DNA from: Subsaximicrobium wynnwilliamsii
Lineage (GTDB): Bacteria; Bacteroidota; Bacteroidia; Flavobacteriales; Flavobacteriaceae
Length of the DNA stretch: 32,382 nucleotides
Reading direction: 5' to 3'
Assembly: GCF_007997225.1 (NCBI RefSeq)
Contig: NZ_VORM01000034.1
Location: 1-32,382 of the forward strand
Positions 342 through 18,718 of the stretch are shown here, in pieces. Position 1 is the first letter of the stretch. Every line of letters begins with the position of its first letter. The notes beneath the pieces were generated by a model. That model ran no database searches. It saw nothing but the letters and a program-made list of their open reading frames with translations, and had not been told where the DNA came from. The translations under genes and the position numbers were made by a program.

Positions 342-474
342 GCACATAACGGTTTGGCTATGCCCACTAAGGGGTTTCGAAGCTCCACCGTTTCAATTTA
401 TTACTAATTTCTATTCTTGCATTAACTCTCAACTTACCACTAAAACCCTTATTGGGTATAGCCTTTGTTGTGCC
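342..474 (-). repeat. Cassette-boundary palindrome 1 (attC-like)
   Basis: This imperfect inverted repeat has ends GCACATAACGGTTTGGCTATG and, on the other strand, GCACAACAAAGGCTATACCC. The arms pair over about 30 nt with bulges, around a central spacer. It lies between the stop of the STAND gene and the truncated lipoprotein gene. It matches the other ten boundary palindromes in its end motifs, so I infer that it is a recombination-type cassette end and not a simple terminator. Confidence 0.6.
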
Positions 475-522
475 TTCGTGCTTTTACTCTTTTATTTCTT
501 GTAGTCAAATTTATAAACTAAA

Positions 523-3500
523 TTAATCTGTCCATCCGATAAAATCCCTTTTCATTTCTACTTGTTTATCTTGTCTTGCCCATTCAATTTCTTGCTCAAA
601 GTTCTTTATATGTTCAGCATAGTCAAGCGGGTTCGGCAAAGTCTTAATCATCTCAATAATTGAATTACTAAAATTGATATGACCTTCGATTCTTGGGACA
701 CGGCTACCAGAAAAAGCACCATTCTTTTCTAACCAAAGACATTTCATAAACTCAATATCTTTGTTAAGCTGCAAAAATCCCTTTAAAAAACGTAACACTT
801 GGTCATTGAAGCTGTATGTAACTACATTTAGAATGATATGAATATGTTGCTTTGAGCCATAGTGTTTAGAAATAAATCTACTGATGTAGGTGTAAACTTT
901 TTCTAATTGCTTTTCGTCCAATTTTAATCCCTTAAATAACGCATTTGCCTGATGTTCAAAATTGGAAAAAATAGGAGCCTTTGCAATGATTATTTCGAGA
1001 GATTTATCAAGGATATCCACATATTCAGGTAGACCCCAAACAAAAGTCAGATTTGAACTATCGAATTTGAACTGAATAAAGGAAACGTCTTTTGTGACTT
1101 CGGTTAAATACTCAACTAAAAAGAAATGGTCTAATGATGAAACAGCAGCCATTTCTTTGCCATCATGGTCATAGTGAGGGTCTCGTTTTTTATGAAGATA
1201 GAATACCTGTTTTAGCAAACCAATTTTCTTGTTGAAATGATTGACACACTTTTCACAAGTTTGACGGTCAAATGTGATGTCAATGCTGTCTACTTTTGAT
1301 AATAATATTTCCGTAATATAGGTTATAACATTTTCGTGATTTAGTGCTGATGGTGGTAAAAGCGATTTTGAAAGATGAAACTGCTTCTCAAATTTTATTT
1401 TCTTATCAAATTCGTAGATATAAAACCTATTGCTTACAGAAAAGAGAAAACCAATGAACTCTTGTAAATAGAATTCATCAATTGCATTTTCATCAATTGC
1501 ATCAAAAAATATTTGTTTCCAAAACTGCTTTTGTTTGTATTCATATCTATTTATGTGCTTGTATAGCTCTTTATGTTTAACCAATTCTTTTCTTATTGGA
1601 TATTGAATAACGCTTCCATAATTTAGCTCAAAAGAATGCTTGCCTAACATTATTAATTCAAGCGATTTGTAGTAAATTTTACTATCAGATTCAGCAAGAA
1701 CCTGAAACAAAAGGCTTAAACTAGAGTCAATCCAAAATGTGTCTCTGCTTTTAGCGGCATCTTGATAAATTGAATCCAATCGGTTAAAAACCGTTTCTAT
1801 AAAATTTATATCCTTGTCCGCAACAAAAGTTTTAATTTCCGCTTTCTTCTTTACGTCTCTTTCCTCAAACTTGAGTTTCTCATCGTCAAACTTTGAACTA
1901 AATATTTTTGCGATTCCCATTGAATCTGAGTTCAAAAACAAGTCCCAATCCATTAGAGGCTCAATATTGTGTTCTTTCAGTGTGTTAACATATTCATGGA
2001 CCAGTTTGCAATGAGCATAGTTTTCGGGCTTCAAATTAGTCTGGAAAAAAGCTGTAATGTCGGATTGTTCGTCAGCGTAAATAGTAGAATCAAAACTTTT
2101 TACAGTCCAAGCATACTTATGCAGTGTAGCTAAAACTGTGGCTTCATTTTTTACAAACAAGCAGAACATCCTTTCCAAAACTATTTTCCTGAGTTCCATG
2201 AGAGAGTTGTTCTTCACTAAGGCGAAATTGTAAATCATCATTTGTCCGCCACTTTTTCCTTCCGTCTGATGAAACTCCCAACCGAGGTAGGAAGGAACAA
2301 TTGAAAGAAATAATTTCTCCGCCATTGCTTTTTCTCTTTCAGAAAAAGAGTCCTTGTTCAGGACATTAAGCAATGTGAGTTGTCGAGGATAGCCATACCT
2401 GAAGTCATAGCGATGGAATGCGAGATGCTCTTTCAGGTGCTTTAGCACTTCAGGAACTTGCGAAGGTTGCTTGAACATCAATTTTAACCCCAACTCTATA
2501 GCTTCTTTCGTAAATGGAGTGTTGTGATTCCAAAAGTTGATTAGTAACCTCAAATATTCAGGAGCCAAAACGAAATCGTTTACTTCATACGTGTATTTGA
2601 TGTCCTCAAGTTCTGTGTTTTCAATCTCTAAATTGTCTATCCATTTTCTGATAAACAAAAGAGTATCCATCTCTCTGTAGAACCAAAATATTTCATAGAA
2701 CTTGAAAAGCTTGGCTTCGTCTGATTCAATCTGTTTATGAAAATTTGAAATCAAACTTGTTACTCGGTCTTTCAATTCGACAAATCCAAAAGTGTTGATT
2801 ATGTCTATGAGTGTTTTGTTTATTTTTTTATCGTATTTAGCAATGAAATAATTCAACCAGTCAGAATAATTTATGGAAGCAGAATTTTCATCCACAAAGG
2901 TTTTATAGAAAACATAAGTTGCTAATACTTGGTCTGAAATCTTTGCTGCTTCATTGTGGAATATATCAACCAGTTCAACTTTTTCTAACTCAAGATAAGT
3001 TTCCCACAACTCATTCCAGTCAATGCCAAAATGCTTCGTTAAAATTTGTTTTATTTCCTCATTGCCTCTGTCCAATACCCCGAAAAAAGAGAGAATACCA
3101 AGTGCTTTAAGATTCTCGGGTTTATCTAAAAACAAAAGGTCAGTTTTCACTTTCTGAAAATACTGGTCATACAGAGTGAAAGCATCATTTAGAATACCGA
3201 TGTCGTTATTTTTCAAAATGGATGAAACTGCCATTAAAGCAAGGCGACTATTGCCTTTAGATAGTGAGAGGATTCTCTCTAAAACCAAAGGATCTAACGA
3301 AATATCTTTGGGAAGTGATTTGTTTATTATTTCCGTTATCTGTTTGTCTTCAAGGGGCTTTACTATTAGTTCATTGTAAAGGGCATCAAGCAGATATTTG
3401 TTGAGGTCATTCCGTACATAATCCCTTACAGTAATTACAATTTTTGTAGTTCCCTTTTCTCTGCCATTTATAAACTGTAAAAGGTAATCCAGATTTGGTA

Positions 3501-4317: not shown

Positions 4318-4356
4318 ATTCTTTTATTATCGTATAATGTGTTTGTTCTGCATGAG

Positions 4357-4490
4357 GCACAACGTTTATGTTTAAGAATAGTTGCTGGTTTGTATGCGAG
4401 GATTTTCCGCAGGAAAATCAGACGTTACAAACACACAACGACCTTTGATTAAGCACATAACCGCAATTATTTTTATACGGTGTTGTGTGC
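4357..4490 (-). repeat. Cassette-boundary palindrome 2 (attC-like)
   Basis: The arms are GGCACAACG...TTTAAGAATAGTTGC and, on the opposite strand, GCACACAACACCG followed by TATAAAAATAATTGC. They pair with bulges around a spacer that has its own small hairpin (GATTTTCCGCAGGAAAATC). The element fills the whole gap between the 342-residue gene and the STAND gene. Confidence 0.6.
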
Positions 4491-4499
4491 AGTGTTTTC

Positions 4500-5528
4500 T
4501 CACTTTTCGTTTTTCAATCTACTTATTATTTCAATTATTCTATCTGGCAATTTTCCTTCGAAATATTCTAAAATTAATGGATTTCCAGTTAAAAAATGAC
4601 TTGTTAATTCAACCCAATCCTTAATTTCAATTTCTCCATTCACTTTAAATAACTTTTGAGATAGAGTTTTTATTTGTGAACCAGTTTTGTCATTATGATT
4701 AAAATCCGTTTCACGCCTTTGTAAATATTCATTTTCTGTGTAAAAATGTATAGCTCCGTCAAAATGTCGAAATGTTCCAGTTAGTTTGTCAAATTCTGCG
4801 TGAATATATTTGGCAGGATAATATTCAATTCCGTTTTTGATTATTTTTTCGGTTTCTTGTTTGAATTCCTCTGCTTGAAAAACTTTGATATTCTCTTTAG
4901 TGTACCATTTAATATTAAGTGAATGAACATCGTTGAAAAACAATTTAATATCAAATTTTTCTAAATCTAAAGGTGGCGTTAACTTAACTATTCCATCTTC
5001 TATATCCGAAATATTTTCTTCAAATTTTGCTCCATACCAAGTGTCCAATTCTATTAACATTCGGTTGTCAACATTTATTCTCACTCTATCAAAATCTAAA
5101 CTTATGTATTTATCATTTTTGGATGAACTATAATTCCAATAAAGTTCAATAAATCTCGGTGCAAAAGCGTTTTTTTCGTAATGACCTCTTCTAAAATAAG
5201 AATTAGCCATTGCCATAAACATATCAGATATTAAATATCCGGAAGCAAATCGTTGTTTTTTGAATTCCTTTTCCAAAACGTCAAAAGATACTAATTCCTC
5301 TTTATCTACTTGAATTTTGTTATTTAGTAAGTTGACCAAGTTTGGATAATTCGCAACAATTCCTATTGTAGGAATATATTCAATATTTTTTTCTGAAATT
5401 ATAATTTTTTTCTTTTTGCAATACTGCAAGAAATTTTTAATAAGTTCTGAATTTTCCGCCAATTCCTTTTCTTGTTCTTCAATCAAGAATTTCCTGTATT
5501 TCTCTATTCTTTCTTCTCTTTCTGTCAA
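4500..5528 (-). CDS. Hypothetical protein, 342 aa, cassette gene
   Basis: I do not recognise this protein. It is soluble, with no signal peptide or membrane segment. It begins with a highly charged helix (EREERIEKYRKFLIEEQEKE), and its middle and C-terminal parts mix short strands and helices. The only start that fits is TTG at 5528: an in-frame TGA lies two codons upstream, and the next ATG is about 100 residues further in. The gene fills a complete cassette between palindromes 2 and 3, and its stop is only 9 nt from palindrome 2. It could be a sensor, immunity or metabolic protein; nothing visible decides. Confidence 0.6.
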   Translation of the reverse strand: MTEREERIEKYRKFLIEEQEKELAENSELIKNFLQYCKKKKIIISEKNIEYIPTIGIVANYPNLVNLLNNKIQVDKEELVSFDVLEKEFKKQRFASGYLISDMFMAMANSYFRRGHYEKNAFAPRFIELYWNYSSSKNDKYISLDFDRVRINVDNRMLIELDTWYGAKFEENISDIEDGIVKLTPPLDLEKFDIKLFFNDVHSLNIKWYTKENIKVFQAEEFKQETEKIIKNGIEYYPAKYIHAEFDKLTGTFRHFDGAIHFYTENEYLQRRETDFNHNDKTGSQIKTLSQKLFKVNGEIEIKDWVELTSHFLTGNPLILEYFEGKLPDRIIEIISRLKNEK

Positions 5529-5549
5529 TTTTCAGGCGGTTTTTACATT

Positions 5550-6496
5550 GCACACAACGTGTGGTGATCGAGTAGACAAGGGGAGTTTCACCCCAAGCCT
5601 CTCACAGAACCGTGCTTGAAAGTCTCCCCTCACACGGCTCTTCTAATTTAATTTACAAATATAAGCTCATCCTTTTGCAAGTTGGCAAATCGTAAATATA
5701 ATTAGCCCATCCCTTCGCTCCACTTCCATTACAGTCCCGATAGCTATCGGGATCATCACTACTACGAATGAGTCTGCCACTGCATACAGCATTGGTATTC
5801 TGCCTTTAGGTTGTGCCTATTGTACATTTCCCTTAACATTTGTATGCAGCTTCCCAAGTTCCGTAAATAAGCCCAAATAAAGTTCTTGCCATCTGAATGA
5901 CGCCAGCCTTACAGAACATAAATAGGCACTCTCTGTAATTAATGTTATCTCTAACATTACTTTTCACTCCGTACAGCCATTCACGCCAGCTGGCTCGTTC
6001 GCTAAAAATGTCCGGAGGACATGTTCTTTACGCTCCGCCCTGTAGCTTTTGACTGGAGGCAGCAACTTCTCGACACCTCATCAATGGTTCTCCGCCTCAG
6101 GCGGATCAACTCCCCTGCCTGCCGGCAGGCAGGTTTATTCATACCTGCTAATCTCTTGGACTAGATTCTCCTAAACGCTCAGTACCAAGACTATTAATCA
6201 AAGCACCTTTAGGTGGTTTAGAGCCATCGCCTATACGACGACTCTGATGGACCTACCATCATCTTATCTACAGCATGCAGCCAGTTTAATGCCGTGACTG
6301 CTTCTTGGCACACTATGAAACGTAGCGTGTAAAAAGACGCTATCGTTTCGAATTATACACGAGCCGAATTTTTAAATTTTTCTTTTTATCTTTATTTTAC
6401 TAAAAGCCAAATTTAAAAATTTGGCGGTCTTCGAAAAGACACAAAAACCATTTGGAAAGCCTATAATAGCTATGTTTTATATACATTGTTGCCCAC
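5550..6496 (-). repeat. Cassette-boundary palindrome 3, split by a group II intron
   Basis: If the intron (5567-6313) is removed, the joined sequence is a 200-bp imperfect palindrome. One arm is GCACACAACGTGTGGTG/TATGAAACGTAGC. The other, read on the minus strand, is GGGCAACAATGTATATAAAACATAGC. The arms align along their length. The spacer holds a second inverted repeat (CCGAATTTTTAAATTT with AAATTTAAAAATTTGG) shared with palindromes 5 and 9. The insertion point lies 8 nt from the conserved CGTTG end. Confidence 0.6.
5567..6313 (-). ncRNA. ORF-less group II intron, copy 1
   Basis: Read on the minus strand, the element starts GTGTGCC at 6313, matching the group II 5' consensus GUGYG. It ends ...CTACTCGAT at 5567, an AY end with a bulged-A candidate 7 nt from the end. 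Domain V lies at 5607-5640: GAGCCGTGTGAGG paired around a GAGACTTTC loop region to GCACGGTTC, with the AGC triad. Domain VI follows with a TGGGG/CTCCCC stem. At 747 bp there is no room for, and no trace of, a reverse transcriptase ORF, so splicing or mobility would need a protein supplied in trans. A near-identical copy lies at 9601-10333. This copy differs by an insertion containing the palindrome CCCGATAGCTATCGGG near 5737. The class (IIA, IIB or IIC) was not resolved. Confidence 0.85.
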
Positions 6497-6509
6497 AGTT
6501 TTTTCCGCT

Positions 6510-7205
6510 TTACTTTTCAAATATAGCAACAGCTCGAACTGGCGAACCTGTTCCTCCTTTAATTTTTAATGGAAAACCTATAAATCTAAATCTTCCTCTT
6601 CCAATCAATAAATTCAGGTTTATCATATTCTCGTAATGTGTAAAATTCAATTCTCCACAAATATGGTGAACCTCTTTATTTGAAATTCCAGGAACTCCAG
6701 GTGACATAGTTTCAACTCCAAAAGCAGATATTTCTTTTTCTCCTAACCATCGAGCAGTTTTTGTCGAAATTCCCGGACCATTTGACCAGTCTTTTCCGTT
6801 AAAACACTTTCTATAATGGTCTGTATAAATTAATACTGTATCTCCTTTTTCTATTTTTAAACCAGTTTTTTCACAAGCATCTTCGATTTCGTTTGGTTCA
6901 ATTAATTCTTTAAGTTTTTTATGAGAAAAATCTAAACAAATTCCTTCTGTGTAAAACATCGATAAAGGCATTTTGTCAATTGATTTACCCTTATATTGAA
7001 TTGCCATATGATTTATAGCGTCAACGTGCGTTCCCGTATGTTCTCCTAATTCTAATTTGTGAACAGCAGGCGTTTTAGTTTCGGGATTTTTTATTCCATT
7101 CCATTCTTCGTGAGAATTATGAACTGTCATTTTTACTTGCGGAAGGTCTTTATAAACTGGCATTCCTTCGTAGATTTCTTGACTTAAATCAATAATTTCT
7201 GTCAT
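6510..7205 (-). CDS. Cyclase-family (kynurenine formamidase-like) metal hydrolase
   Basis: The protein has 231 residues, a full length for the cyclase/KynB-like family (Pfam Cyclase). It opens with the usual IIDLSQEIYEGMPVY. Its metal-binding signature is His56-TGT-His60-V-Asp62-AIN-His66; the family consensus HxGTHxDxPxH usually has Pro where this protein has Ile64. FGVETMSPG is a second family hallmark near the C-terminus. Relatives hydrolyse amide or lactone-like bonds, for example N-formylkynurenine. No tryptophan-catabolism neighbours exist here, so the substrate is unknown. The ATG at 7205 is clear. The gene forms a single-gene cassette between palindromes 3 and 4. Confidence 0.85.
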   Translation of the reverse strand: MTEIIDLSQEIYEGMPVYKDLPQVKMTVHNSHEEWNGIKNPETKTPAVHKLELGEHTGTHVDAINHMAIQYKGKSIDKMPLSMFYTEGICLDFSHKKLKELIEPNEIEDACEKTGLKIEKGDTVLIYTDHYRKCFNGKDWSNGPGISTKTARWLGEKEISAFGVETMSPGVPGISNKEVHHICGELNFTHYENMINLNLLIGRGRFRFIGFPLKIKGGTGSPVRAVAIFEK

Positions 7206-7230
7206 TCAGTATCGTGGTTTTTTAAATTGT

Positions 7231-7430
7231 GGGCAACGGTAAGGTTATGACAAGTAGGGCGGATGATAAGCGATTACTTTCCGCCATGCACTTAGCAAAA
7301 CCTTTGGGTTTTGTTTTTTCTTTTTTTTCTGGACAAAGCAAAATCTCAAAGATTTTGCGGACTTTGCAAATACGCCCAAGCCTTTAAATATAGCACTTTC
7401 TGCCCTATTTGTTATAGCCATTGTTGTCAT
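7231..7430 (-). repeat. Cassette-boundary palindrome 4 (attC-like)
   Basis: The arms are GGGCAACGGTAAGGTTATGACAAG followed by TAGGGCGGA, and on the opposite strand TGACAACAATGGCTATAAC followed by AAATAGGGCAGA. They pair over more than 30 nt with two bulges. The spacer contains an AAAATCTCAAAGATTTT hairpin. A further 160 nt between this element and the GNAT gene show no gene that I can support. A 61-residue open frame within the element is low-complexity and was rejected. Confidence 0.6.
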
Positions 7431-7596
7431 TAGTAGCTACCGCAAGAGTAAGTACGTTCCGCTTAGGCTAATAAATTATTTTTCTATTTTTCCATGACCG
7501 AGTAAAGTCCTTCGCATCAGTTGCGTTTGAGTGAAGTCCATTTACTTAATACTTATCAAAAATGAGGCCCTAATTATTTGTTATGGTGGCGTTTTT

Positions 7597-8109
7597 TTAC
7601 CATGGCAACCCGTTTAATTCAATTTTATCAGCACATATTTTTTCATCTCTAGTCAAAAGCATTGTACTTGCTCCCCACAATTTTACTCCGCTTGATTGTT
7701 CAAAATAAACGGGGCAATCAATTTTGTACCAGTTGAATTTTTCATAAAAAGGAATTAAAGCATCGGCACAAAGTAAAAGACCCATTTCACAGCTTAAACT
7801 TGTAAAAATTAGATTTTCTATTTCTCTTAAAACTATTGAAGCATAACCCATACCGCGAAATTCTTTTGGGGTCATAACGTTGTTTAGACCTGCAATTTTA
7901 ATTTTTTTATTATCAATACTAATTTCTCTTAGAACAATATTATAGAAAGTAACTATTTGTTCATTATCGTAAAATATTATTGTTAAATTGGGTGTTTCCC
8001 ATTCGGTTTCTTTAACAATAGGAATGTGTCCAAATTCATCTTCGATATACGAGCTTAATTGATTCCTTAACTTTTCTGACAATTCAGTATATTTCTTTAT
8101 TTCAATCAT
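7597..8109 (-). CDS. GNAT-family N-acetyltransferase
   Basis: The 170-residue protein has the GNAT fold signature. Motif A is at about residues 85-105, with the acetyl-CoA pyrophosphate loop RGMGYAS after a strand ending NNVMTPKEF. Motif B includes LIPFYEKFNW. It ends in GLPW, as many small GNAT enzymes do. The general arrangement is reminiscent of aminoglycoside 2'-N-acetyltransferase-like GNATs, but substrate assignment is not possible from sequence alone. It shares a cassette with the broken CYTH gene upstream: no palindrome separates the two, only about 55 nt. The start at ATG 8109 is unambiguous. Confidence 0.75.
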   Translation of the reverse strand: MIEIKKYTELSEKLRNQLSSYIEDEFGHIPIVKETEWETPNLTIIFYDNEQIVTFYNIVLREISIDNKKIKIAGLNNVMTPKEFRGMGYASIVLREIENLIFTSLSCEMGLLLCADALIPFYEKFNWYKIDCPVYFEQSSGVKLWGASTMLLTRDEKICADKIELNGLPW

Positions 8110-8163
8110 TTCTGCATAGTTAGCTCAAAGACTAATTTTTGGTTAGGCTTTTAAACCTAATTC

Positions 8164-8693
8164 TTAAATCGTGTTTTTTTTCAGTTCTACAGTTAAGTCG
8201 CTATAAGACTTGTCAACTAAATTATTTTGGTTAACTCAAAAAAGTTGAAATACTTGTCGCATTATTCTTGCAGTTCTTCAATTGTAAATTCATCTTTACT
8301 GTCTATTGCCTCCACCTCTAAAAATGTTCCTAAATTCTCCACAAGGTCAAAGTGAAATTTAATATTATCAATAAAATATATTTTTCGTTTTTTATCAACT
8401 ATAACTTTTACTCCAAGTTGTCTTTTTAGTATATTTTTCAAAGCAACATTTGGTTCGTGTTGATATAAAATTATTGTAGATTCTTTTGAACCTGAAATAT
8501 TCTCTCTGTCATAATTTATTAACGAGTTTTCAATATTCCCTTCTCTTAATTTTAGTCTTCCTAATTCCGTGTTGAAATATGTGTCAATTTGATGGTCTGT
8601 TCCTTGAAATTTTGGATTTAGCGTAAGTAGTTTGTTTTCATATTCTTCAAGTTCACTTACTTTCGCCTTAAATTCAAAATTCTTAATATTCAT
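8164..8693 (-). pseudogene. CYTH-domain (class IV adenylate cyclase-like) gene with stop and frameshift
   Basis: From ATG 8693 the frame encodes a CYTH (triphosphate tunnel) protein: FEFKAK near the start, DTYFN, RLKLREGNIE, then KRKIYFIDNIKFHFD and FLEVEA. It stops with TAA at 8262 after 143 residues. The C-terminal helix continues immediately in the same frame (CDKYFNFFELTK). After a one-base shift, the family's terminal SYSDL motif appears, ending at 8164. Intact relatives are about 170-180 residues. CYTH proteins bind triphosphates or polyphosphate with metal ions; this copy has lost the last strands and helix and is probably inactive. A sequencing error could mimic one lesion but hardly both. 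Confidence 0.75.
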
Positions 8694-8736
8694 TTCTACT
8701 TAGTTTTCTGTTAGTTGGATTTTTTTTGCTATTAAT

Positions 8737-8930
8737 GACAACGTTCTTGTATATAACTATTAGCGTGGAATTTAGCGATAATTTTTCGGTTAAGCACGAG
8801 CCGAATTTTTTAATTTTCTTATTATCTTTTTTCTCAATAAGCCAAATTAAAAAATTTGGTGGACTTGCAAATATGCCTTAACTACGATTAAGCAACTAAC
8901 TAGCTATGAGATATATACGGTGTTAGCAAC
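8737..8930 (-). repeat. Cassette-boundary palindrome 5 (attC-like)
   Basis: The arms GACAACGTTCTTGTATATAAC and, on the other strand, GCTAACACCGTATATATCTC pair imperfectly. The central spacer has the GAGCCGAATTTTTTAATTTTC / CCAAATTAAAAAATTTGG inverted repeat also found in palindromes 3 and 9. With flanking bases it accounts for most of the 320-nt gap between the CYTH pseudogene and the DUF6090-like gene. It keeps an uninterrupted version of the intron target region (ATATACAAGAACGTTG). Confidence 0.6.
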
Positions 8931-9013
8931 TGGCTTTTCTTGCTAGCTGTTTGTTCAAACTCCCTATCCTCGCTATTAATTTTGAACTATCTTACTTTAT
9001 TAGCAAAAAGTAT

Positions 9014-9556: not shown

Positions 9557-9583
9557 TTAATTTTCGTTATTTGTTTTCAGCTT

Positions 9584-10437: not shown

Positions 10438-10441
10438 CGGC

Positions 10442-11131
10442 TTAGTGATTGCTTTTTTTATTTCGTAATTCAGTTATTTTCCACAATTTATAATCCAATT
10501 TGTACATAGATTTAAATGCCAAACATATTTCCTCAATCATTTTGCCAAAATCCTCTTCAGGTTTCCATTGAACTTTAAAAAATCCAATATCAATATCATT
10601 ATGCTTTTCTGTATATGATAAGAAATACTTTCTGAACATTAAAAACATCGTGTCTTTATAATTTTGAAATAATTCGGGGTATTTTCTTTGAACATCGATA
10701 GAAAAAAATGAATTTTCCTCGTATTCAAATCCGCTGAATTTTTTTAGTTCAAAAAGTTCCGACCAAAAATCATCTCTCATATTTTTTAGATTTTCAGCGT
10801 GAAGGAAAGAAGTTCTTAAATAGATTCCTTCTAAATCAGTCGCTAAATAATAAGTTCCGTTTGTTTTTATCGATTTAATTATTAAAGATGGCCCATATAA
10901 ATTGAGGTGCATTTTACTTGTGTCAAAATCATCTTTAAAATTGCCGTATCTTATCGCTAAATCAGCAATTTTCCCAAGTACGGCGGAAGTTTCGTAAGTC
11001 ACATTTGTAAATTCTTCTTCACTCTGAATTTCCTCTGTAAATATGGATGCTCTTTGCTGATTAAGAATTTCAGTCCAAAGGTCGAATTCTTTACAATTTT
11101 CTATAATTATCTTATTTAAACGAATATTCAT
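10442..11131 (-). CDS. Hypothetical protein, 229 aa, cassette gene
   Basis: I do not recognise this protein. It is a soluble mixed alpha/beta protein without signal peptide or membrane segment. Its most distinctive stretches are NQQRASIFTEEIQSEEEF near residue 25 and a C-terminal half rich in aromatic residues (FFKVQWKPEEDFGKMIEE). The ATG at 11131 fits, and the stop lies 4 nt from palindrome 6. It forms a single-gene cassette. Nothing around it hints at a partner. Confidence 0.6.
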   Translation of the reverse strand: MNIRLNKIIIENCKEFDLWTEILNQQRASIFTEEIQSEEEFTNVTYETSAVLGKIADLAIRYGNFKDDFDTSKMHLNLYGPSLIIKSIKTNGTYYLATDLEGIYLRTSFLHAENLKNMRDDFWSELFELKKFSGFEYEENSFFSIDVQRKYPELFQNYKDTMFLMFRKYFLSYTEKHNDIDIGFFKVQWKPEEDFGKMIEEICLAFKSMYKLDYKLWKITELRNKKSNH

Positions 11132-11147
11132 TAAATTTCTTAAATAT

Positions 11148-11273
11148 GTGGCAACGGATTTGAGTGCTATTAATTGCGCTTTCTCAAAGCATTAATTTAT
11201 TAATAAAACCGGATAGAAAATCTGCAAGGATTTTCTCAAGCAGTAGATAACCAAGCAATTAACAATACGCGGC
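11148..11273 (-). repeat. Cassette-boundary palindrome 7 (attC-like)
   Basis: The ends are GTGGCAACGGATTTG and GCCGCGTATTGTTAATTGC (opposite strand). The best pairing is GTGCTATTAATTGCG with GCAATTAACAATACGC, plus an inner hairpin made of AGAAAATC and GATTTTCT. It is the least regular of the set, with the outer ends out of register, but it has the same size and position. Confidence 0.45.
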
Positions 11274-11291
11274 TTTTTTAGGTGCAGTATT

Positions 11292-13061
11292 TTATTTCTC
11301 TTGTTCAATTACATTCCATTTTCTAATAATACTCAAAATAAGATGTAGATTGTCCACGCAAGCAAAGATCATTTGATAACCTTGAATGATACTCGGCTTG
11401 TTTCTATCTATTAGAATCAACTTGAATGAATTTTCAATTTCACTACTTGGCAAATGAGCATCTCCATGTCTTAATTCATAAACACCTACAAAAGAGCTTA
11501 ATATTTTTCGAGCGTCTTCTTTTGGGATTTTAATAGCCAAAAGATTTTCAACGGTTTTTAAAGAACCCCATTTCGTTTTTTTAGGTGGAGTTGCTATTTT
11601 CTGAAGTGATTCAATATCAATGTCATCGACAATTATTCTAGCAATGTCTTTTGCAAGAGAGAATAGTCCTTTATCATCAACTGCTCTAAATCGACTTATA
11701 GAATTAATAATTTCGTTAATAGAATGATGTCCTCTGAAAAAATCAATATTTAAGTTTTGTTTTGATGCCTCATTTATTTGATTTATTACTTTTTCAATAA
11801 AGTCTTCTGGAGCTAAAGTTGAAGCTGGTACAGCTTTTACTTGAGAATCATACAATTCTTTAGATATTCCACCTTCTGGAGAAATGTTATGACCTACCCA
11901 AATTTGTTGTTGCCAAATTGGTAAATTACCAACGTCTTTTGCATAAACTGTTATTAGACCTAAATCATTCATTCCAAAATGAACTCCAAATGATGGAGCA
12001 CAGGAAATACTGCCAGTGTTTTTTGAATACCAACTTAAAAACCCACCTCTTTTTAATATTAGTGATGAAACTAATTCAGGGCTAAACCAAAGCCATTTAC
12101 CTCCTTTCTTTAATTCTTCTCCACTTTCTTTGTTTCCTTCTGCATCAACAATATAAAACATGTCAATTTGTTGTTCTTCTCCCAAAACAACAGGGCTTGA
12201 TTTAGCTGGATTAATCCATTCGTATTTCCAAAATTCTGCTATAATTCGATACAACTTTTTCCCTTTGAAACTTTTTTCATGAAATTCAGATTTTATATTC
12301 GAATCTGTAGGAAAAGAGGTCATATCAGGTATATCTTCTGCTTCATCTACGTCTGTTCGACTTGCATGAGAAATTGCTATTTTTTCTCCAAAAGAAAAAC
12401 CGCCTTCATGAATTTCTAGAACTCTACATTCCCAAACATCCTTTCCTTCTTTCGTGCTTTTAGAATCACCACGCCATGATAGTATTTCTCTATTGGAAAA
12501 AATTTCGTCTCTGCAGAAATATGAAGTTATATACAAACCACAATTTCTAGCACACAAATAATCCTTAAGAAATTGATTTTTGATTTGAATTAATATTGGA
12601 CTTCCTTCTTTATTTCTTTCCAGTTTTGCAACTTCAACATAACCTCTTCTTGGACAAACCCAAATATCTTTTTCTCTTTTTAATCCTAGATTAATAACTA
12701 AATCTTGATGAAGATGCCATTCATTATTGTCATAATTGTTATCAAAATTTTGATTTAAAACTAAATGTATTCCTTGAAAATCGGAGTTTTCAAACATTTC
12801 TGATTGCGAATACTCACCATATAAATAATTGAAACTATGCGCATGATTTATTCCAACATCCATCCAATCTAAATCTTTAGTCATTGGTTTTTTACTTACA
12901 GGAAGCATTAATGTTCCATGACCAATAAAATCGTCGATATATCCAACTTCACCAAATTCAATATTGTTACGAATTGATTTGTCCGAACGAAGAGGAATCC
13001 AAACGGATTTGTCTAATTTCCGTTTTTTCAAATCTTTCATTTCAAACCATAGTTGATTCAT
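11292..13061 (-). CDS. Large unknown cassette protein with possible C-terminal HEPN motif
   Basis: I do not recognise the N-terminal 450 residues, which are beta-rich with many aromatic residues. Near the C-terminus the sequence YELRHGDAHLP contains Arg-x4-His, the pattern of HEPN RNase active sites. It lies between helices, as in HEPN domains, about 55 residues from the end. The open frame extends to a TTG at 13121, but that start lies inside palindrome 8. I prefer the ATG at 13061 (MNQLWF), giving 589 residues; an ATG at 13040 is possible. Some HEPN proteins with large sensor domains (for example ApeA) are abortive phage-defence factors, so defence is plausible. This rests on one short motif. 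Confidence 0.55.
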   Translation of the reverse strand: MNQLWFEMKDLKKRKLDKSVWIPLRSDKSIRNNIEFGEVGYIDDFIGHGTLMLPVSKKPMTKDLDWMDVGINHAHSFNYLYGEYSQSEMFENSDFQGIHLVLNQNFDNNYDNNEWHLHQDLVINLGLKREKDIWVCPRRGYVEVAKLERNKEGSPILIQIKNQFLKDYLCARNCGLYITSYFCRDEIFSNREILSWRGDSKSTKEGKDVWECRVLEIHEGGFSFGEKIAISHASRTDVDEAEDIPDMTSFPTDSNIKSEFHEKSFKGKKLYRIIAEFWKYEWINPAKSSPVVLGEEQQIDMFYIVDAEGNKESGEELKKGGKWLWFSPELVSSLILKRGGFLSWYSKNTGSISCAPSFGVHFGMNDLGLITVYAKDVGNLPIWQQQIWVGHNISPEGGISKELYDSQVKAVPASTLAPEDFIEKVINQINEASKQNLNIDFFRGHHSINEIINSISRFRAVDDKGLFSLAKDIARIIVDDIDIESLQKIATPPKKTKWGSLKTVENLLAIKIPKEDARKILSSFVGVYELRHGDAHLPSSEIENSFKLILIDRNKPSIIQGYQMIFACVDNLHLILSIIRKWNVIEQEK

Positions 13062-13115
13062 TTGTTCTATTTTAGCATGCTGGCTGGTTGGGCTGGGCGG
13101 ATTCAAGGTGCTTAC

Positions 13116-13247
13116 GCACAACGCCCCCGTGTAAGCTTAGTTGCGTTATCTCTGGGCACTAATTTAGTAATAAAAACGGACTTTGGTGCCAGCGAGGTTT
13201 TTCAAAGATTGTAGGTAGTAGCAATTAAGTATACTCGATGTTGCCAG
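13116..13247 (-). repeat. Cassette-boundary palindrome 8 (attC-like)
   Basis: The arms GCACAACGCCCCCGTGTAAGC plus TTAGTTGCG pair with opposite-strand GGCAACATCGAGTATAC plus TTAATTGC, with a 3-nt bulge. Length is 132 bp. It starts 9 nt beyond the stop of the TIR gene, so in gene order it directly follows that gene. Confidence 0.6.
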
Positions 13248-13255
13248 TAGTAGTT

Positions 13256-14503
13256 TTACCTTTCATTTAATCTTCGAAGACTTTCAACTTGTCTTTGCTC
13301 ATAATCTAATTGCATTTCAAAATCGTCAGGCCATTCTTTTCTTCCGTTCGTTCTAATAATTATGAATTTTCCCTGTTCAATATCAATTGGGTTATGTTTT
13401 TTAAGTTTTACAATAGCATTTTTATGTCTATCAATGTAATCGAGTTGCATTTCAAAATCATCAGGCCATTCTTTTTGACTTTTTGATTTTATTATGTCAT
13501 CCTGATTATCATAAAAATTAAGTTCTAAGTTTTCTTCAGTTTGTTTAGTCCTCTTAGGTTTTTCATTGACTGTAGAGTATACTACAGTTTCTAAAAGTAC
13601 TTTTAAATCCTTTAAAGAATTATCTCGTTTGCGTTCCCAAACTGAATTATTAATTGGCTTTAAATCCAAAAAATCTTCAATTACGTTTTTTAGACTATTA
13701 TATTTTGCTTTTTCATTTATTTTCATTCCATTGGTTGTCGGAATTACACCTTTAACATCACTATAATCGAAAGGTGGTATTAAAACTGGAATATGATTAT
13801 TTGTCTTTACCCAAGTTGCACCCATTTCGCATAGACTTACTACACTAGAATAAAAATTTTCAGATAAAATAAAAACAACTAAGACATTGCTATTCAGTCT
13901 TTTTCTTATGTCCTCAAGGAAATCATTTCCTAACCTCACTCCGTATCCTTCAAAGGATGAACAAAATATTTTATCGCTTGGAACTCCAATGGCTTCAAAA
14001 ATATCAATTAATTTCTCCACGTATTTCGAATCTAAACTGGAATGACTAATAAAAATTTCTTTCATTTCTTTTTTTCGATTTAAAGTATCGTGTTCAGTAG
14101 TTGATTCTGAATAATACTCTACTGTTTTCATAAATTTTGTCTTTCTCTTTAATAGATTAAGAACAACCAATTTTTTCTTGGTTTGATTTAATGTATGGAC
14201 ATATTTATTTTTAACCACATCAACTTTTTCGCCAGCGAAAGCGTTAACTATTGGTTTGAAATCAATTCTATTAGTACCCTCAAATTTCGTCAAAAACTCA
14301 TTTTCAAAAATCGTAGCTAATCTAATTTTTAAAAACTCTTGAACCTCTTCTGTCCAATAAATAAATTCTCGTTCTAGTGATTCGAGATTGTCGGGATTAA
14401 CAGGTAATAGTTTAAATTTTTTATGTAAATCTTTACCCTCTTGAATATAATTTTCAAGTTCTTTAATAAATTCATTTCTCGGGAAGTCTATTTCTATCTC
14501 CAA
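13256..14503 (-). CDS. TIR-domain protein with duplicated C-terminal motif
   Basis: The protein has 415 residues. Residues 1-147 are helical and unknown. Residues 148-275 form a TIR domain, starting KEIFISHSSLD and including FILSENFYSS and CEMGATW; Glu226 is in the position of the catalytic glutamate of NAD+-consuming TIRs. The tail carries an exact 13-residue duplication, KEWPDDFEMQLDY, at 344-356 and 389-401. I have seen similar motifs at the ends of other Bacteroidota proteins. Bacterial TIR proteins commonly deplete NAD+ or make cyclic ADP-ribose signals in anti-phage defence, so I infer a defence effector. The start is TTG at 14503: an in-frame TAG lies four codons upstream and no earlier ATG exists. 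Confidence 0.8.
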   Translation of the reverse strand: MEIEIDFPRNEFIKELENYIQEGKDLHKKFKLLPVNPDNLESLEREFIYWTEEVQEFLKIRLATIFENEFLTKFEGTNRIDFKPIVNAFAGEKVDVVKNKYVHTLNQTKKKLVVLNLLKRKTKFMKTVEYYSESTTEHDTLNRKKEMKEIFISHSSLDSKYVEKLIDIFEAIGVPSDKIFCSSFEGYGVRLGNDFLEDIRKRLNSNVLVVFILSENFYSSVVSLCEMGATWVKTNNHIPVLIPPFDYSDVKGVIPTTNGMKINEKAKYNSLKNVIEDFLDLKPINNSVWERKRDNSLKDLKVLLETVVYSTVNEKPKRTKQTEENLELNFYDNQDDIIKSKSQKEWPDDFEMQLDYIDRHKNAIVKLKKHNPIDIEQGKFIIIRTNGRKEWPDDFEMQLDYEQRQVESLRRLNER

Positions 14504-14521
14504 ATTTGTTTTTTTCTATTA

Positions 14522-14722
14522 CTGGCGACGGTTTTATTATAAGAATAGTAAGGCGGAAAAAAGACGACTACCATTCGGTAAAACACAAGCCGAATTTTTA
14601 ATTTTTTCTTATTATTTTTTCTTTACTAATAATCCAAATTTAAAAATTTGGCGACTTCGCAAAAGTGCCTTTGCCATTGGGTTAAGCACTCATTGCCCTA
14701 TTATTATTATACTTTGTTGAAC
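14522..14722 (-). repeat. Cassette-boundary palindrome 9 (attC-like)
   Basis: The arms GGCGACGGTTTTATTATAAG and, on the other strand, TTCAACAAAGTATAATAATAA pair imperfectly. The spacer repeats the GCCGAATTTTTAATTTTTTC / CCAAATTTAAAAATTTGG inverted repeat of palindromes 3 and 5. It lies just upstream of the TIR gene, and its outer end runs into GAAC at 14719-14722, where the IS91-like element appears to start. Confidence 0.55.
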
Positions 14723-14848
14723 TAATCCTCGTACCTCGGAAGCTTTTTAGCTAGTTATAAAAATACATTAACTTAGTGACTCACAAAAACCTTAAGAAGA
14801 TGTATTTAAAAAAAAGCAAAGACCATTTTAGAAACGGCCCTTGAACAG

Positions 14849-15709
14849 GTGCCCGAATTTAGAGAACTAACAGTTGCCCTAGAAAAAAGTTTTGCCATAA
14901 ACGGTAAGGCAACCACCACCTTAAACAACTACCTGCGCTGCCTTGCCCATCTAACGATCTATTTTGAAAGCAGCCCCGAGAACCTTACAGAAGAGCAGAT
15001 CAACGACTATCTCTTTTATTGCCAAAACCTTCACAGGACGCCATCAGAAAGTTTTTTTAAGCACACCATTTATGGGCTTCGGGCCACTTATAAGGTGTTG
15101 GGGCTTGATAAAAAACGTATCCGGCTTCCACAGATAAAAAGGCAAAACAGCCTTCCTGTCCTTTTGAACAAACAAGAAGTTCGCGAGCTGTTGAATGCTC
15201 CAAAAGACCTGAAGCACCGTTTGATTCTTGCCATGCTCTACGGTTGTGGACTGCGCAGTTATGAGCTCTGTGACCTGTTGCAATCGGATCTGGATTTTGA
15301 CCGCAGAACTGTGCTGATAAAAAAGAAAAAGGGAAAAACAGACCGCTATGTTCCTCTTAGCGCTCACCTTGTTCGAGGCCTGAAAAAGTATTTTGATACC
15401 GAACATCCCATAAAATACGTTTTCAACAGTTAGGTCACAAACGACGGTGCCGCACAGGCTCTTACCACAGGGGCCATCCAGTGGGTCATTAAAGAAAGTC
15501 GTTCAAAAGTTAACACGCAGAAGAAGTTTACGGCCCATACGCTTCGTCATTCCTATGCCACCCATCTGCTCGAGGACGGGCTGAATATAATGAGCCTGAA
15601 AGAGCTGTTGGGGCATGCCCGTATTGAGACCACCATCATGTACCTTCAGGTCTGCAGCTCCGAGAGCTCGGTCAAGTTCAGTCCGTTGGACACCTTGTTC
15701 AAAAGCTAA
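14849..15709 (+). pseudogene. IS91-associated tyrosine recombinase, interrupted by TAG
   Basis: The frame encodes a XerC/D-like integrase of about 286 residues with a SAM-like N-terminal domain and a complete catalytic set: Arg136 (GCGLRSYEL), His230 and Arg233 (HTLRH), His256 (LLGHAR) and nucleophile Tyr265. A TAG at codon 195 (15431-15433) splits it, with the same frame resuming at once. The GTG at 14849 may not be the original start. An ATG at 14800 would be in frame if a run of eight A residues (14808-14815) were one base shorter, which would restore an N-terminus YLKKAKTILETALEQ. So there may be two lesions. It reads away from the cassette array like an integron integrase. However, its tight coupling to the transposase shows it belongs to the IS. 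Confidence 0.75.
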
Positions 15710-16857
15710 TGCATCCCAAACATAGAGTGGCAGATGTGTTGAATCTGGAAGTGGGCCATCTGCAGAAAATAGCGCATACCAGTTGGAATGAACGGGCCCT
15801 ACATGCGATCAGAAAATACCGCACCAAGGCTCTTGGCGGACGTTTGGACTGGTGCATGAACTGCAGGAAGTTGCACTTACAGTTCAATTCCTGCCGTAAC
15901 CGGCACTGTCCCACATGCCAGGGACATAAGCAGCATCAGTGGATTGAGGCCAGGAGGAGAGAACTTCTTCCGGTGCCTTATTTTCATGTGGTCTTTACAC
16001 TTCCCGATACACTAAACCCTGTTGCAATGCGCCATCCCAAAGAACTCTACAGGATATTGTTTGATAGCGTCTGAGAAACATTATGTGCCTTTGGGAACAA
16101 TCCCAAACATCTGGGAGCCAAACTAGGGATGATCGCCGTACTGCACTCCTGGGGGCAGAACCTGGGCCTGCATCCCCATCTGCACTGTATCGTTCCCAAG
16201 GGCGGTGTCTCAAAAGCGGGATTTTGGAAAAAGGGAACGGGAAAGGATGATTTTCTGTTCTCGGTAAAGGCAATGAGCTTCAAGTTCCGGGGCCTGTTTG
16301 CATCCAAGTTACGAAAGGCACTTCCCCATTTGCCAAAAAGTCTATATGATGACTTGTTCAGGCATAATTGGGTGGTCTATTCCAAACCTCCCTTTGGCAG
16401 ACCAGAGCACGTCATTGAATATTTGGGAAGGTACACGCACAAGATAGCCATCAGCAACCATCGCATCCTGTCAATAGACAAAGAGAACGGGACGGTTGCA
16501 TTCAGTCTAAAGGTGTACAGGAAAGGCGGGAAGAAAACAATGATAACACTGGACACAAAAGAGTTTATACGGCGTTTTCAGCTCCATATCCTGCCCAAGG
16601 GATTTACACGTATTCGCCATTATGGATTTTTGAGCAGTAGTTGGAAAAAAGAGAGATTACCACTTCTACAGCTTCAGTTGGCAGACGTGGGCCTCAAACA
16701 TATAGAACCTCCTGTCGCAGAAGAAAAGTCATTGCACCACTGTTGTCCAAGTTGTAAAAAGAAGACCCTGGTCACCTTGTTGACTTTTGGCAGTCGCGGC
16801 CCACCAAAGAACTATGAACAAATCATAAACCGTAAACTGCTGAAGTACAATGCTTAA
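15709..16857 (+). pseudogene. IS91-family HUH transposase, interrupted by TGA
   Basis: The full frame is about 382 codons. The N-terminus has a zinc-binding cluster (Cys49, Cys52, Cys62, His66, Cys67, Cys70; CRNRHCPTC). The HUH motif is His157-Leu-His159 in LHPHLHCIVPKGG. The catalytic tyrosine region is IEYLGRYTHKIAISN, with Tyr238 and Tyr242 as candidates. These define an IS91-type rolling-circle replication initiator. A TGA at codon 122 (16072-16074), where relatives have Trp or similar, interrupts the reading frame, which otherwise continues unchanged to 16857. Its ATG overlaps the recombinase stop (TAATG), indicating translational coupling. Confidence 0.85.
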
Positions 16858-17077
16858 AATGGCTCAAAAAGAGCCCTGGCATACTGATGCCTAAAACGAA
16901 AAAAAAAGACAAAAAATAGATGATCTCTACAGTCAACAACGGAAATCACTGCGGAAAAAACTTTTTTGGGCAGCATTCTAAAATCAAGAGTGCTATAAAG
17001 TGCAGTAAAACGTCGTTCTAATTCTCCAAGGCTCACTGCAAACTTCTCGAATTACCCCTTATTTACAAAGTCCGGAT

Positions 17078-17136
17078 CAGTCAACATAGCATATAGCGCT
17101 GGCCTATCGGCGCGCCATATGCTTAGTTATTAGCTG
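17078..17136 (-). repeat. Compact cassette-boundary palindrome 10 (attC-like, 59 bp)
   Basis: On the minus strand, CAGCTAATAACTAAGCATATGGCGC and the opposite-strand CAGTCAACATAGCATATAGCGC pair along their whole length with small bulges, around a loop of about 12 nt. It lies 7 nt beyond the stop of the PIN-domain gene. Its size and shape are closer to canonical integron attC sites than those of the other members. Confidence 0.6.
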
Positions 17137-17142
17137 TAGTTA

Positions 17143-17886
17143 TTATACTATATTTTTACTTTTTAAAATTCCGAAAGCTATTTTAAAATTTGAAAAATAT
17201 TCAATGTTATTAATTGTAGCTTCATTACTAATTTCTGTCACAAATTCTTTTTTGTTTTCATTGGCGTAATCGGATACATTGCTTGATATAAAATAATAAG
17301 GGTAACTTTTATCTGTATTGGTATTTCTAATTTCTAAGCAAGTAGCCCATATGTAGCAATCTTTATATTCTCCTTTTTTTTGTGCAGGCGGAATTTTATT
17401 CATAGTCCGAAAATGGGCAAACTCTTTGAAAGTGTCATCTTCTTCAACAAAAATCGTATTACTTATTATTGCGTGTGTAATTTGGCACAAAAGCTCTTCT
17501 ATTTTATAAATTGATAAATCTATATCTGAAATTGTTTGAGATGTTAAATTCACTTTATTTATAAATCCAATAAATTTATTATGGGATTTTGATAGTTTTT
17601 TACTTTCAGATTCTAATCTCTTTGACCAATTTTCTATATGATTGTTAAATTCAGTTATGCACAATTCCGATGATAAACTAATTATATCGTTAGACACAAT
17701 TTTATCCTTTATTTCAATAACCTTACTTAATGTATCTACTTTATTATTTCTATCTGGTAAAGGAAGTCTAACAATGTCTAAAAGAGAACAAGTGTCCCAA
17801 AAAAGCACAGGTTTTTTATGTATGTCAATTAAATTTATGACTTCACTTTTATTCTTTTTTTGGGCGTTATTAATTATTAACATAGT
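17143..17886 (-). CDS. PIN-like domain nuclease (DUF4935-type)
   Basis: The chosen ATG at 17886 gives 247 residues; an upstream start at 17919 would overlap the preceding gene more deeply. The acidic residues of a PIN RNase are in order: Asp30 in LFWDTCSLL, Glu in SSELCITEF, Asp in KKGEYKDCYIW and Asp in SSNVSDY. The KGEYKDCYIW stretch resembles the conserved KGEFxDxxI of DUF4935 PIN-like proteins. PIN proteins cleave RNA with metal ions and occur as toxins and as defence effectors. The gene overlaps the end of the upstream 216-residue gene by 17 nt, so the two are translated together. They may form a toxin-antitoxin or sensor-effector pair. Confidence 0.7.
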   Translation of the reverse strand, partial: TMLIINNAQKKNKSEVINLIDIHKKPVLFWDTCSLLDIVRLPLPDRNNKVDTLSKVIEIKDKIVSNDIISLSSELCITEFNNHIENWSKRLESESKKLSKSHNKFIGFINKVNLTSQTISDIDLSIYKIEELLCQITHAIISNTIFVEEDDTFKEFAHFRTMNKIPPAQKKGEYKDCYIWATCLEIRNTNTDKSYPYYFISSNVSDYANENKKEFVTEISNEATINNIEYFSNFKIAFGILKSKNIV

Positions 17887-18520
17887 GCTCAAGTATAGAA
17901 ATGCCGTACTCATAATCAATAACTATTTTTGACACTAATTCATCATCATTCCAATCACACGCTTCAAACAACCACCTTTGTAACAAATCAGGTGTTAATT
18001 TTGATTTTTCTTTAAAAGAAATGCATAAAAAATTAGCCCATCTCTCAAAATCCATAGGATGTGTGTTTCCAGTAGAATGATTACAAGACTTTTCCCATTT
18101 TTTCAGAGATTCAAAAACTGTTGTACCAGCTATAATTTCGATGTTAAATTTACCTTCTGAAATAGTCAAAGAAGAGTCTGCTCCAATTGTTATTGGTTTT
18201 ATACATTTTTCGTAGAATTCATCCAATATTCCATTGTACTCATCGAAGGACAATGACCCTGATTTTGTCGGCACTATATTATTTACTTTCAGTTCATTTT
18301 CCCATATGACAAACCAAACATAACCTTTGACGCCATTTATCTCTGGTGACTCAAAACAGCTTATTTGTTCTTTTGGTTTACTGACATTTTTTGAATAATC
18401 AGAAGCCAATTCTTCTAAGAATATCCATTCTGGTGGCGAACTTAAAATAACTTTATTAAGTATATCTTCTAATTCGGTTTGGGAATTATTTTTTATTATT
18501 AAATCTTTAAATGTTTTCAT
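17870..18520 (-). CDS. Hypothetical partner protein of the PIN nuclease
   Basis: I do not recognise this 216-residue protein. It is acidic and soluble, with no signal peptide. Its C-terminal third contains WANFLCISFKEKSK and a final acidic helical segment (DWNDDELVSKIVIDYEYG). The gene starts at a clear ATG (18520), and its stop overlaps the start of the PIN gene by 17 nt. The two share one cassette bounded by palindromes 10 and 11, so the pair was probably acquired together. It could be the antitoxin, immunity or sensing half of a two-gene system; this is inference from gene order. Confidence 0.65.
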   Translation of the reverse strand: MKTFKDLIIKNNSQTELEDILNKVILSSPPEWIFLEELASDYSKNVSKPKEQISCFESPEINGVKGYVWFVIWENELKVNNIVPTKSGSLSFDEYNGILDEFYEKCIKPITIGADSSLTISEGKFNIEIIAGTTVFESLKKWEKSCNHSTGNTHPMDFERWANFLCISFKEKSKLTPDLLQRWLFEACDWNDDELVSKIVIDYEYGISILEHYVNN

Positions 18521-18554
18521 TTCGATAAATTTTCATTTTCTTTTTTGTTAATTA

Positions 18555-18718
18555 CAGCTAACAGACTATATCCTAACAAATATATACTTTTATCTGACAA
18601 TTGAAATGGACAAACAAATAATCAACCCCACTTTAGAAGTGTGGTTTATTGAACTTAAAAAAATTTAAGTGTTAGGCATTAAATAAAATAATGAAGCTAT
18701 ATACTCAATGTTAACAAC
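18555..18718 (-). repeat. Cassette-boundary palindrome 11 (attC-like), array edge
   Basis: The end CAGCTAACAGACTATATCC pairs with the opposite-strand end TGTTAACATTGAGTATATAGC, with a 3-nt bulge. The 164-bp element includes an inner inverted repeat (CCCCACTTTAGAAGTGTGG). It lies upstream of the PIN pair and is the last such palindrome, marking the right edge of the array. From 18719 to 18969 I see no gene, only a 35-nt repeat of the XRE upstream region at about 18825-18860. Confidence 0.5.

Follow-up and report, generated by a model that had tools for sequence, protein, structure and literature searches.

The stretch of DNA analysed here (the window) is the entire contig C61, 32,382 bp, of the 4.9-Mb draft genome of Subsaximicrobium wynnwilliamsii (132 contigs). 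It is very probably part of a large chromosomal cassette array, belonging to an integron-type gene-capture system of the Flavobacteriales and some other Bacteroidota and moved by a tyrosine recombinase, FlaInt. The sequence points to this through the cassette architecture, a rule by which the R'' box of a site matches the start of its own cassette, a covarying hairpin, the order of integrase, attI and array on one strand, and the absence of the insert specific to IntI. A sequence-only reading of the window had proposed an integron-like array of minus-strand units bounded by eleven imperfect palindromes, and this interpretation is supported.

Cassette sites and the match of R'' to the cassette start

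All eleven palindromes lie within ~8 nt of a minus-strand GTT or GTC box (R'), with first bases at 350, 4363, 5558, 7237, 8742, 9592, 11155, 13122, 14529, 17085 and 18562. In integrons, the cut falls near the first base of R', what is left of this box goes to the following cassette, and R'' pairs with the beginning of its own cassette. The window follows the same rule: in eight of ten cassettes, the R'' at the 3' end is reverse-complementary to the bases with which that cassette begins (scores of 8–10 out of 12), compared with 9 of 100 non-own combinations scoring 8 or more, as counted from the score matrix. Two window cassettes have long search stretches because of introns. The sites backed by R'' are those at 350, 4363, 5558, 7237, 8742, 13122, 14529 and 17085; those at 9592 and 11155 have recognizable arms and a degenerate R'', and the left arm at 18562 is not confidently placed. 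The shared end motifs of the sequence-only reading mark real sites, but they are not plain copies of one another, R'' being cassette-specific.

The rule extends well beyond the window. Counts for the S. wynnwilliamsii genome come from 41 loci (the window and 40 further stretches) and are lower bounds. Here, 110 consecutive pairs of R'' and own cassette start share on average 9.1 of 10 bases, and 100 of the pairs share 9 or 10. Permuted pairs have a mean of 6.0 and a maximum of 6.52 in 20,000 trials, with 8.6% of other pairings reaching 9, and R'' compared with R' within one site has a mean of 6.2 (22 of 140 reach 9). With distinct pairs taken once each, 53 of 63 reach 9, compared with 2.2% of other combinations. 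R'' matches its own start in 77 of 107 cassettes of relatives (one genome per species; 2.7% of other combinations), in 24 of 29 cassettes from named genomes, and in 199 of 277 cassettes of a relative assembled as a single contig, G002, where 108 of 131 distinct pairs match compared with 2.5%. Complementarity of R'' to the cassette start is a property of IntI integrons, and the arrays described here share it.

Sites were detected with hidden Markov models of the arms, trained on 76 sites of the S. wynnwilliamsii genome after three of 79 calls had been removed, among them one with an unplaced R'' (L103) and one with a misplaced R' (L088). These models found 140 sites on 30 of the 41 loci and none in a Markov-shuffled copy, and no locus carries sites on both strands. 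They recover six of the eleven window sites, one with a misplaced R'. A covariance model built from eight window sites, arms only (R1), gave four matches in the window (three at known sites, one shortened, one on the opposite strand); with few and mostly weak matches it was dropped. A stem-only scan, which also gave many matches in shuffled DNA, was replaced by the arm models together with the test of R'' against the own start.

The sites fall into two main length classes, in which R'' and R' are ~118 and ~185 nt apart. Among the 140 sites, R' begins with GTTR in 133 and is preceded by C in 137. The strict GTTRRRY box is present in 6 of these, in 12 of 136 sites of relatives and in 2 of 38 sites of named genomes. 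RYYYAAC, the canonical R'' box, occurs in 9 of 140; as a rule the sites do not carry the box pair of IntI integrons. An excerpt of PMC7923331 prints the R'' box as RYYYACC.

The L''/L' stem covaries. In 48 diverse sites there are 108 double-change cells, compared with 30.9 (s.d. 4.2) after shuffling, and the covariation is 0.326 compared with 0.087 (each 0 of 500 shuffles), consistent with a conserved R''-L''-L'-R' plan. Two stem columns, five pairs apart, have no standard pair in 48 of 48 sites: an A in L'' faces a C in L', which on the bottom strand makes T-G. The two mispairs are present in 127 and 130 of 140 sites of S. wynnwilliamsii, 128 and 116 of 136 in relatives, 34 and 34 of 38 in named genomes, and 268 and 245 of 278 in G002; this conservation may in part come from the search, because models built on S. 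wynnwilliamsii sites served to detect them. The attC sites of IntI integrons instead have extrahelical bases, and the analogy suggests that the A-C mispairs could stand in for these as polarity marks. The bottom strand gives the more stable fold in 124 of 140 sites, compared with 43 of 133 control segments.

Palindromes behind genes could also be transcription terminators or another repeat, with the units shuffled by homologous recombination, and similar sites on many contigs could indeed recombine in this way. Palindromes confined to terminators at conserved loci, away from unit boundaries, were not seen: among 504 pairs of homologous blocks (≥250 bp, ≥75% identity) from the S. wynnwilliamsii genome and relatives, 336 of 929 block ends lie within 15 nt of a site boundary, compared with 1.9% of random points, although repeats within genomes weigh heavily in this number and supply most of the boundary matches. 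Against a terminator or passive repeat, R'' matches the start of its own cassette, a match that homologous exchange between whole repeats would not be expected to create. Moreover, 48 of the 110 cassettes have no ATG-initiated open reading frame (ORF) of ≥60 aa and yet have sites (in the others the longest such ORF runs with the site direction in 60 and opposite to it in 2); and in G002 the sites keep to a single strand throughout 262 kb. The terminator reading was rejected on the R'' rule and the strand bias, and this explanation as a whole is extremely improbable.

The recombinase FlaInt, attI and array order

The sequence-only reading had noted that the window array lacks an integrase and had raised the possibility of a flavobacterial system of cassettes served by a recombinase of its own. 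Each of these statements holds: contig C121 of the same genome (locus L102) encodes a tyrosine recombinase of 393 aa (L102:8903-10084), followed by an attI and sites of the same kind, an arrangement also seen in relatives, at 28 of the 40 loci with a homologue. At the attI, 27 nt past the stop codon, stands GTTGTACAAT, to which the next site has an exactly complementary R''; two further sites follow, up to the contig end.

This order is maintained across genomes. The 28 loci in relatives hold 136 sites, all of which are downstream of the integrase and on its strand, with none in 144 kb upstream. Among 80 loci from named genomes, nine hold 38 sites, all likewise downstream and on the integrase strand (an uncultured Lutibacter, Algibacter onchidii, Winogradskyella ursingii, Seonamhaeicola aphaedonensis, Zunongwangia mangrovi, Flavobacteriaceae S0862 and three metagenome-assembled genomes). 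In G002, the integrase (1,836,321-1,837,493) is followed, 0.8 kb behind, by the first of 278 plus-strand sites spanning 1,838,281 to 2,100,648 (262 kb). There are no minus-strand sites and none in the 22 kb before the integrase, which is the sole match to the integrase query within 300 kb at E 1e-5.

An attI motif, TATATTT(g)T....ATATAAC.A|GTT, is found behind 21 of 21 close homologues, mostly 27-36 nt past the stop codon. In 13 cases the first cassette also has a matching R'', and all 13 starts differ. Part of the attI sequences contain TATATTTG, which resembles the Bacteroidetes -7 box and might belong to a cassette promoter (Pc). As in IntI integrons, attI is next to the integrase gene. In class 1 integrons it is not behind that gene, and FlaInt differs from them in this respect. 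Archaeal integrons also have attI behind the integrase gene, according to an excerpt of PMC9668308.

FlaInt is, by its sequence, a XerA-like recombinase with an extra N-terminal domain, and it is placed outside IntI because the IntI-specific insert is missing. Between the KGxKxR and HxLRH boxes there are 64-65 residues in 28 of 28 FlaInt sequences and 106 in 29 of 29 IntI sequences; the insert of ~42 residues (the I2 or patch III region) is accordingly absent from the former and present in the latter. The alignment to VchIntIA is interrupted over chain residues 197-247. FlaInt of S. wynnwilliamsii scores 212 bits against TIGR02249 (IntI), below the cut-off of 265, and passes NF040815 (XerA) narrowly, at 221.9 over a cut-off of 220. 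The columns R, K, H, R, H and Y, presumably catalytic, are invariant in 30 of 30 homologues, as expected of a Xer-like enzyme. XerA acts on dif. FlaInt differs from archaeal XerA and XerC-like recombinases by its N-terminal domain (~85 residues), a C-terminal NPLD/SPLD tail and the cassette array. A HARP / XPB-DRD / UvsW-N domain, compared by sequence and fold, is a possible identity of the N-terminal region. Integrases of ~305-312 aa at L211, L212 and L213 have no N-terminal domain, and arrays are present there nonetheless.

These results bear on whether the window is an ordinary cluster of attC sites lacking integron-integrases (CALIN), in which a canonical IntI located elsewhere acts on divergent attC sites and the XerA-like recombinase plays no part. 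The R''-L''-L'-R' plan and the GTT core are those of attC, and the phylum does have canonical IntI, with 105 of 395 Bacteroidota genomes scoring above the TIGR02249 cut-off. However, no IntI match over the cut-off was found in the S. wynnwilliamsii genome; none of the 108 IntI-matching genomes of the 395 is listed in its order, whose share of the 395 is not stated; the strict GTTRRRY box is rare in all three site sets; and it is the XerA-like gene with its attI that heads arrays. We consider this explanation very unlikely.

In the mechanism that we propose, FlaInt, encoded in the direction of the array, would exchange strands between attI and the attC-like sites, at C^GTT or G^TT, so that circular cassettes would enter at attI and could leave or move within the array. 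FlaInt would catalyse this exchange itself, probably on the bottom strand of the site folded as a hairpin. The two invariant mispairs may mark polarity on that strand, as the extrahelical bases do in attC, and the N-terminal domain may help to bind the folded site, replacing the I2 helix. Recombination at FlaInt sites is thus something that we infer.

An S24-peptidase-type repressor is encoded beside and divergent from the integrase in S. wynnwilliamsii (L102:8077-8778) and in its nearest relative (L199:18393-19067). By Pfam S24 match it was found at one of 83 other loci, that of the nearest relative, and it was rejected as a general control of the system, being confined to these two genomes; damage-linked control is possible. 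In another single-contig genome, G006:C1, there are three integrase copies of the second subgroup, with sites behind both that were fetched (L214 and L215); two of the three, that of L215 included, have an in-frame stop within the match.

Contents of the window array

The units between R' boxes hold one or two genes each, encoding nSTAND3, a putative cyclase, GNAT and CYTH proteins, an SpbK-like TIR protein, a PIN protein and several unknown proteins. Positions 20.6-27.2 kb hold an ordinary set of sigma factor, FecR, TonB-receptor and SusD genes. The features of the array are as follows.

341-476, minus: attC-like site, 3' end of cassette 4363-350; R'' GCACAAC matches own cassette start GTTGTGCC, score 9; covariance model R1, 47.7 bits
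523-4317, minus: cassette gene, 1264 aa, nSTAND3 NTPase domain (Pfam PF20720, E 7.8e-12)
4354-4491, minus: attC-like site, 118-nt class; R'' score 10; found by arm model; part of alignment A5
4500-5528, minus: cassette gene, 342 aa, without Pfam match
5549-6497, minus: attC-like site split by group II intron; R'' TGTGGGCAAC (6488-6497) matches own start at 7237, score 10
5567-6313, minus: group II intron without reverse-transcriptase-sized ORF, in cassette orientation, inserted at CATA^CAC in the L' arm (Rfam RF01999, 108 bits; RF00029, 64.5 bits)
6510-7205, minus: cassette gene, putative cyclase (Pfam PF04199, E 1.8e-34)
7228-7432, minus: attC-like site, 185-nt class; R'' score 10
7597-8109, minus: cassette gene, GNAT acetyltransferase (Pfam PF13527, E 4.6e-8), in a two-gene cassette with 8262-8693
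8262-8693, minus: cassette gene, CYTH domain (Pfam PF01928, E 9.5e-15)
8733-8931, minus: attC-like site, 185-nt class; R'' score 9; similar sequences (72-83% identity) on several further contigs
9014-9556, minus: cassette gene, 180 aa, without Pfam match
9583-10450, minus: attC-like site split by second group II intron; arms recognizable, R'' degenerate
9601-10333, minus: group II intron, 96% identical to the first, also at target CATA^CAC (Rfam RF01999, 105 bits)
10442-11131, minus: cassette gene, 229 aa, without Pfam match
11146-11289, minus: attC-like site; arms recognizable, R'' degenerate, no own-start match
11292-13121, minus: cassette gene, 609 aa, without Pfam match
13113-13249, minus: attC-like site, 118-nt class; R'' ACTGGCAAC matches own start at 14529, score 8
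13256-14503, minus: cassette gene, TIR domain, SpbK-like (Pfam TIR_2, E 4.6e-7; PADLOC spbK, E 1.2e-44)
14520-14725, minus: attC-like site, 185-nt class; R'' score 8
14849-16857, plus: IS91-like element (tyrosine recombinase, Zn_Tnp_IS91, Y2_Tnp; Pfam) inside cassette 17085-14529; stop in recombinase frame
17076-17138, minus: compact attC-like site, ~60 nt; R'' TACAGCTAA matches own cassette start, score 9
17143-18520, minus: two-gene cassette, 216-aa protein and PIN_12 protein (Pfam PF16289, E 3.5e-12)
18553-18714, minus: probable first boundary of the array; R' at 18562 matches R'' at 17130; left arm uncertain, weak fold

Among the cassette genes, the one with the TIR domain is a candidate for an anti-phage function. 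Elsewhere in the genome one cassette type recurs, with start GTTGTAAAAA and R'' GTTGTGAAAA, in 21 of the 110 cassettes (R' and the following R'' ~330-375 bp apart; on L101, L082, L085, L084 and others).

The IS91-like element places a second tyrosine recombinase within the window array, and the cassettes could in principle be moved by it or by the host XerC/XerD; XerCD are described as recombining the hairpin-folded CTXphi genome in excerpts of PMC7790495 and PMC4792948. CTXphi-type elements, which use host XerCD on a folded single strand, resemble the system described here in joining a Xer-type recombinase without the patch to a hairpin substrate, but unlike it they have no cassette array, integrase of their own or attI platform (same sources). 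The IS91-like recombinase was rejected as the cassette recombinase, since the element lies inside one cassette, in the opposite direction and with a stop in the recombinase frame. FlaInt, by contrast, heads the arrays at 28 of 40 loci and the 262-kb array. Movement by either of these other recombinases is most improbable.

The sequence-only reading had missed the introns in sites 5558 and 9592, along with the R''-to-start rule and a recombinase without the IntI-specific domain. Three group II intron copies of ~740 nt were found, two in the window and one on contig C54 (L097, about 14496-15238). All three are inserted at CATA^(C/T)AC in the L' arm, in cassette direction, in three different sites. 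The two window introns have no minus-strand ORF over 63 aa and, without one of reverse-transcriptase size, would need a helper protein from elsewhere. Like group IIC-attC introns, they are group II introns within cassette recombination sites. Group IIC-attC introns are described as lying opposite to the cassettes at a TTGT/T target at R''; a group IIB intron and an unusual group IIC intron are the two reported to run in cassette direction (excerpts of PMC7923331). Here, cassette orientation is instead combined with a target in L', and the introns appear to be a separate lineage fitted to FlaInt sites.

Distribution, movement and origin

Within the genus, 22 of 23 genomes match the integrase at E ≤ 1e-40 (15 of 22 others at 51-69% identity), and covariance model R2 found sites in 23 of 23 genus genomes and in 63 of 196 genomes of the order. 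With R2, 141 candidates were scored, a number reached by both the S. wynnwilliamsii genome and G002, so that each has at least 141. The co-occurring tyrosine recombinase to which the sequence-only reading had pointed is borne out among the 196: 38 genomes have both integrase (E ≤ 1e-43; 54 of 196) and sites, 16 the integrase only, 25 sites only and 117 neither (Fisher p 6e-12, kinship ignored; counted by hand, with two draws of 196 taken as identical genomes). Beyond the order, integrases of 34-37% identity and without the IntI insert seemingly head arrays at L284 (Rufibacter, ~53-nt sites) and L276 (Arundinibacter, ~118 nt). These arrays would seem to extend the system beyond the Flavobacteriales; we treat them as a lead from a chain scan, whose minus-strand control is not independent because the sites are palindromic.

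Evidence of movement between genomes is sparser. Ten blocks are shared between S. wynnwilliamsii and another genome, and no more than 2 of their 20 ends come within 60 nt of a boundary. Among these blocks is a probable shared cassette, at L096 and L216, which covers 1,139 bp at 83.5% identity and has one end 13 nt from a boundary.

The system looks like an integron by the sequence tests of cassette build and order, and it lies outside the IntI family by the defining feature of that family. It shares with the sedentary chromosomal integrons of IntI type one-direction arrays, one imperfect palindrome per cassette, a GTT core, attI beside the integrase and very large arrays. The Vibrio cholerae superintegron has 179 cassettes in 126 kb (excerpt of PMC11551772), compared with the 262 kb of G002, and gene-less cassettes are common to Vibrio, as the title of one paper has it, and to FlaInt arrays. 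FlaInt differs from IntI integrons by the missing insert of ~42 residues, by its clade and by an R box that is not GTTRRRY.

We read the FlaInt system as a parallel or ancestral integron class. FlaInt and IntI integrons may be one lineage, either from an ancestor without the patch or with FlaInt descended from forms that lost I2, an account that concerns origin rather than function and that we hold at slightly under even chances. Both have the site plan, the GTT core and, in the sequences compared, a C-terminus of similar form, (S/N)P(L/V/I)D, and both stand apart from most XerC/D in the tree. In that tree (from which IntI_L232 with its odd 814-aa frame, the window IS91 fragment and IntI_L235 with a missing box were left out), however, IntI (100/99) and FlaInt (88/85) form separate clades with other recombinases beside each; a single clade of the two is only marginally rejected (p-AU 0.046), which we take as undecided.

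There is a fair chance that the system is a separate invention of the integron. In its full form, this would be a second kind of integron with an origin apart from IntI, in which a XerA-like recombinase without the I2 helix relies, in most members, on an N-terminal domain that binds forks or junctions, with two invariant T-G mispairs of the folded bottom strand as polarity marks, and which serves as the main cassette capture of the Flavobacteriales with arrays exceeding the V. cholerae superintegron; this, too, we put forward tentatively, as a shade less than an even bet.

According to excerpts of PMC8618304 and PMC2426708, Bacteroidota are among the integron-bearing phyla; in an excerpt of PMC9024848, Bacteroidetes had previously yielded In0 elements only and then one complete integron, in Salinibacter ruber M1, far fewer than the 105 genomes with canonical IntI counted above. 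No description of a FlaInt-type system was found in the open-licence PMC literature as covered in part and with preprints excluded, on which alone our statements of absence rest.

Current models hold that the I2 helix enabled IntI to recombine the folded single-stranded attC (excerpts of PMC7790495 and PMC4792948). In the FlaInt family, which occurs in many Bacteroidota and can reach hundreds of cassettes, the recombinase lacks this part, which was thought necessary, and a widespread integron class without I2 would make the origin of I2 and the need for it directly testable. It would also represent a large gene-capture reservoir in Bacteroidota, missed by IntI-based tools or filed by them as integrase-less clusters, the cassettes of which include a candidate anti-phage gene.

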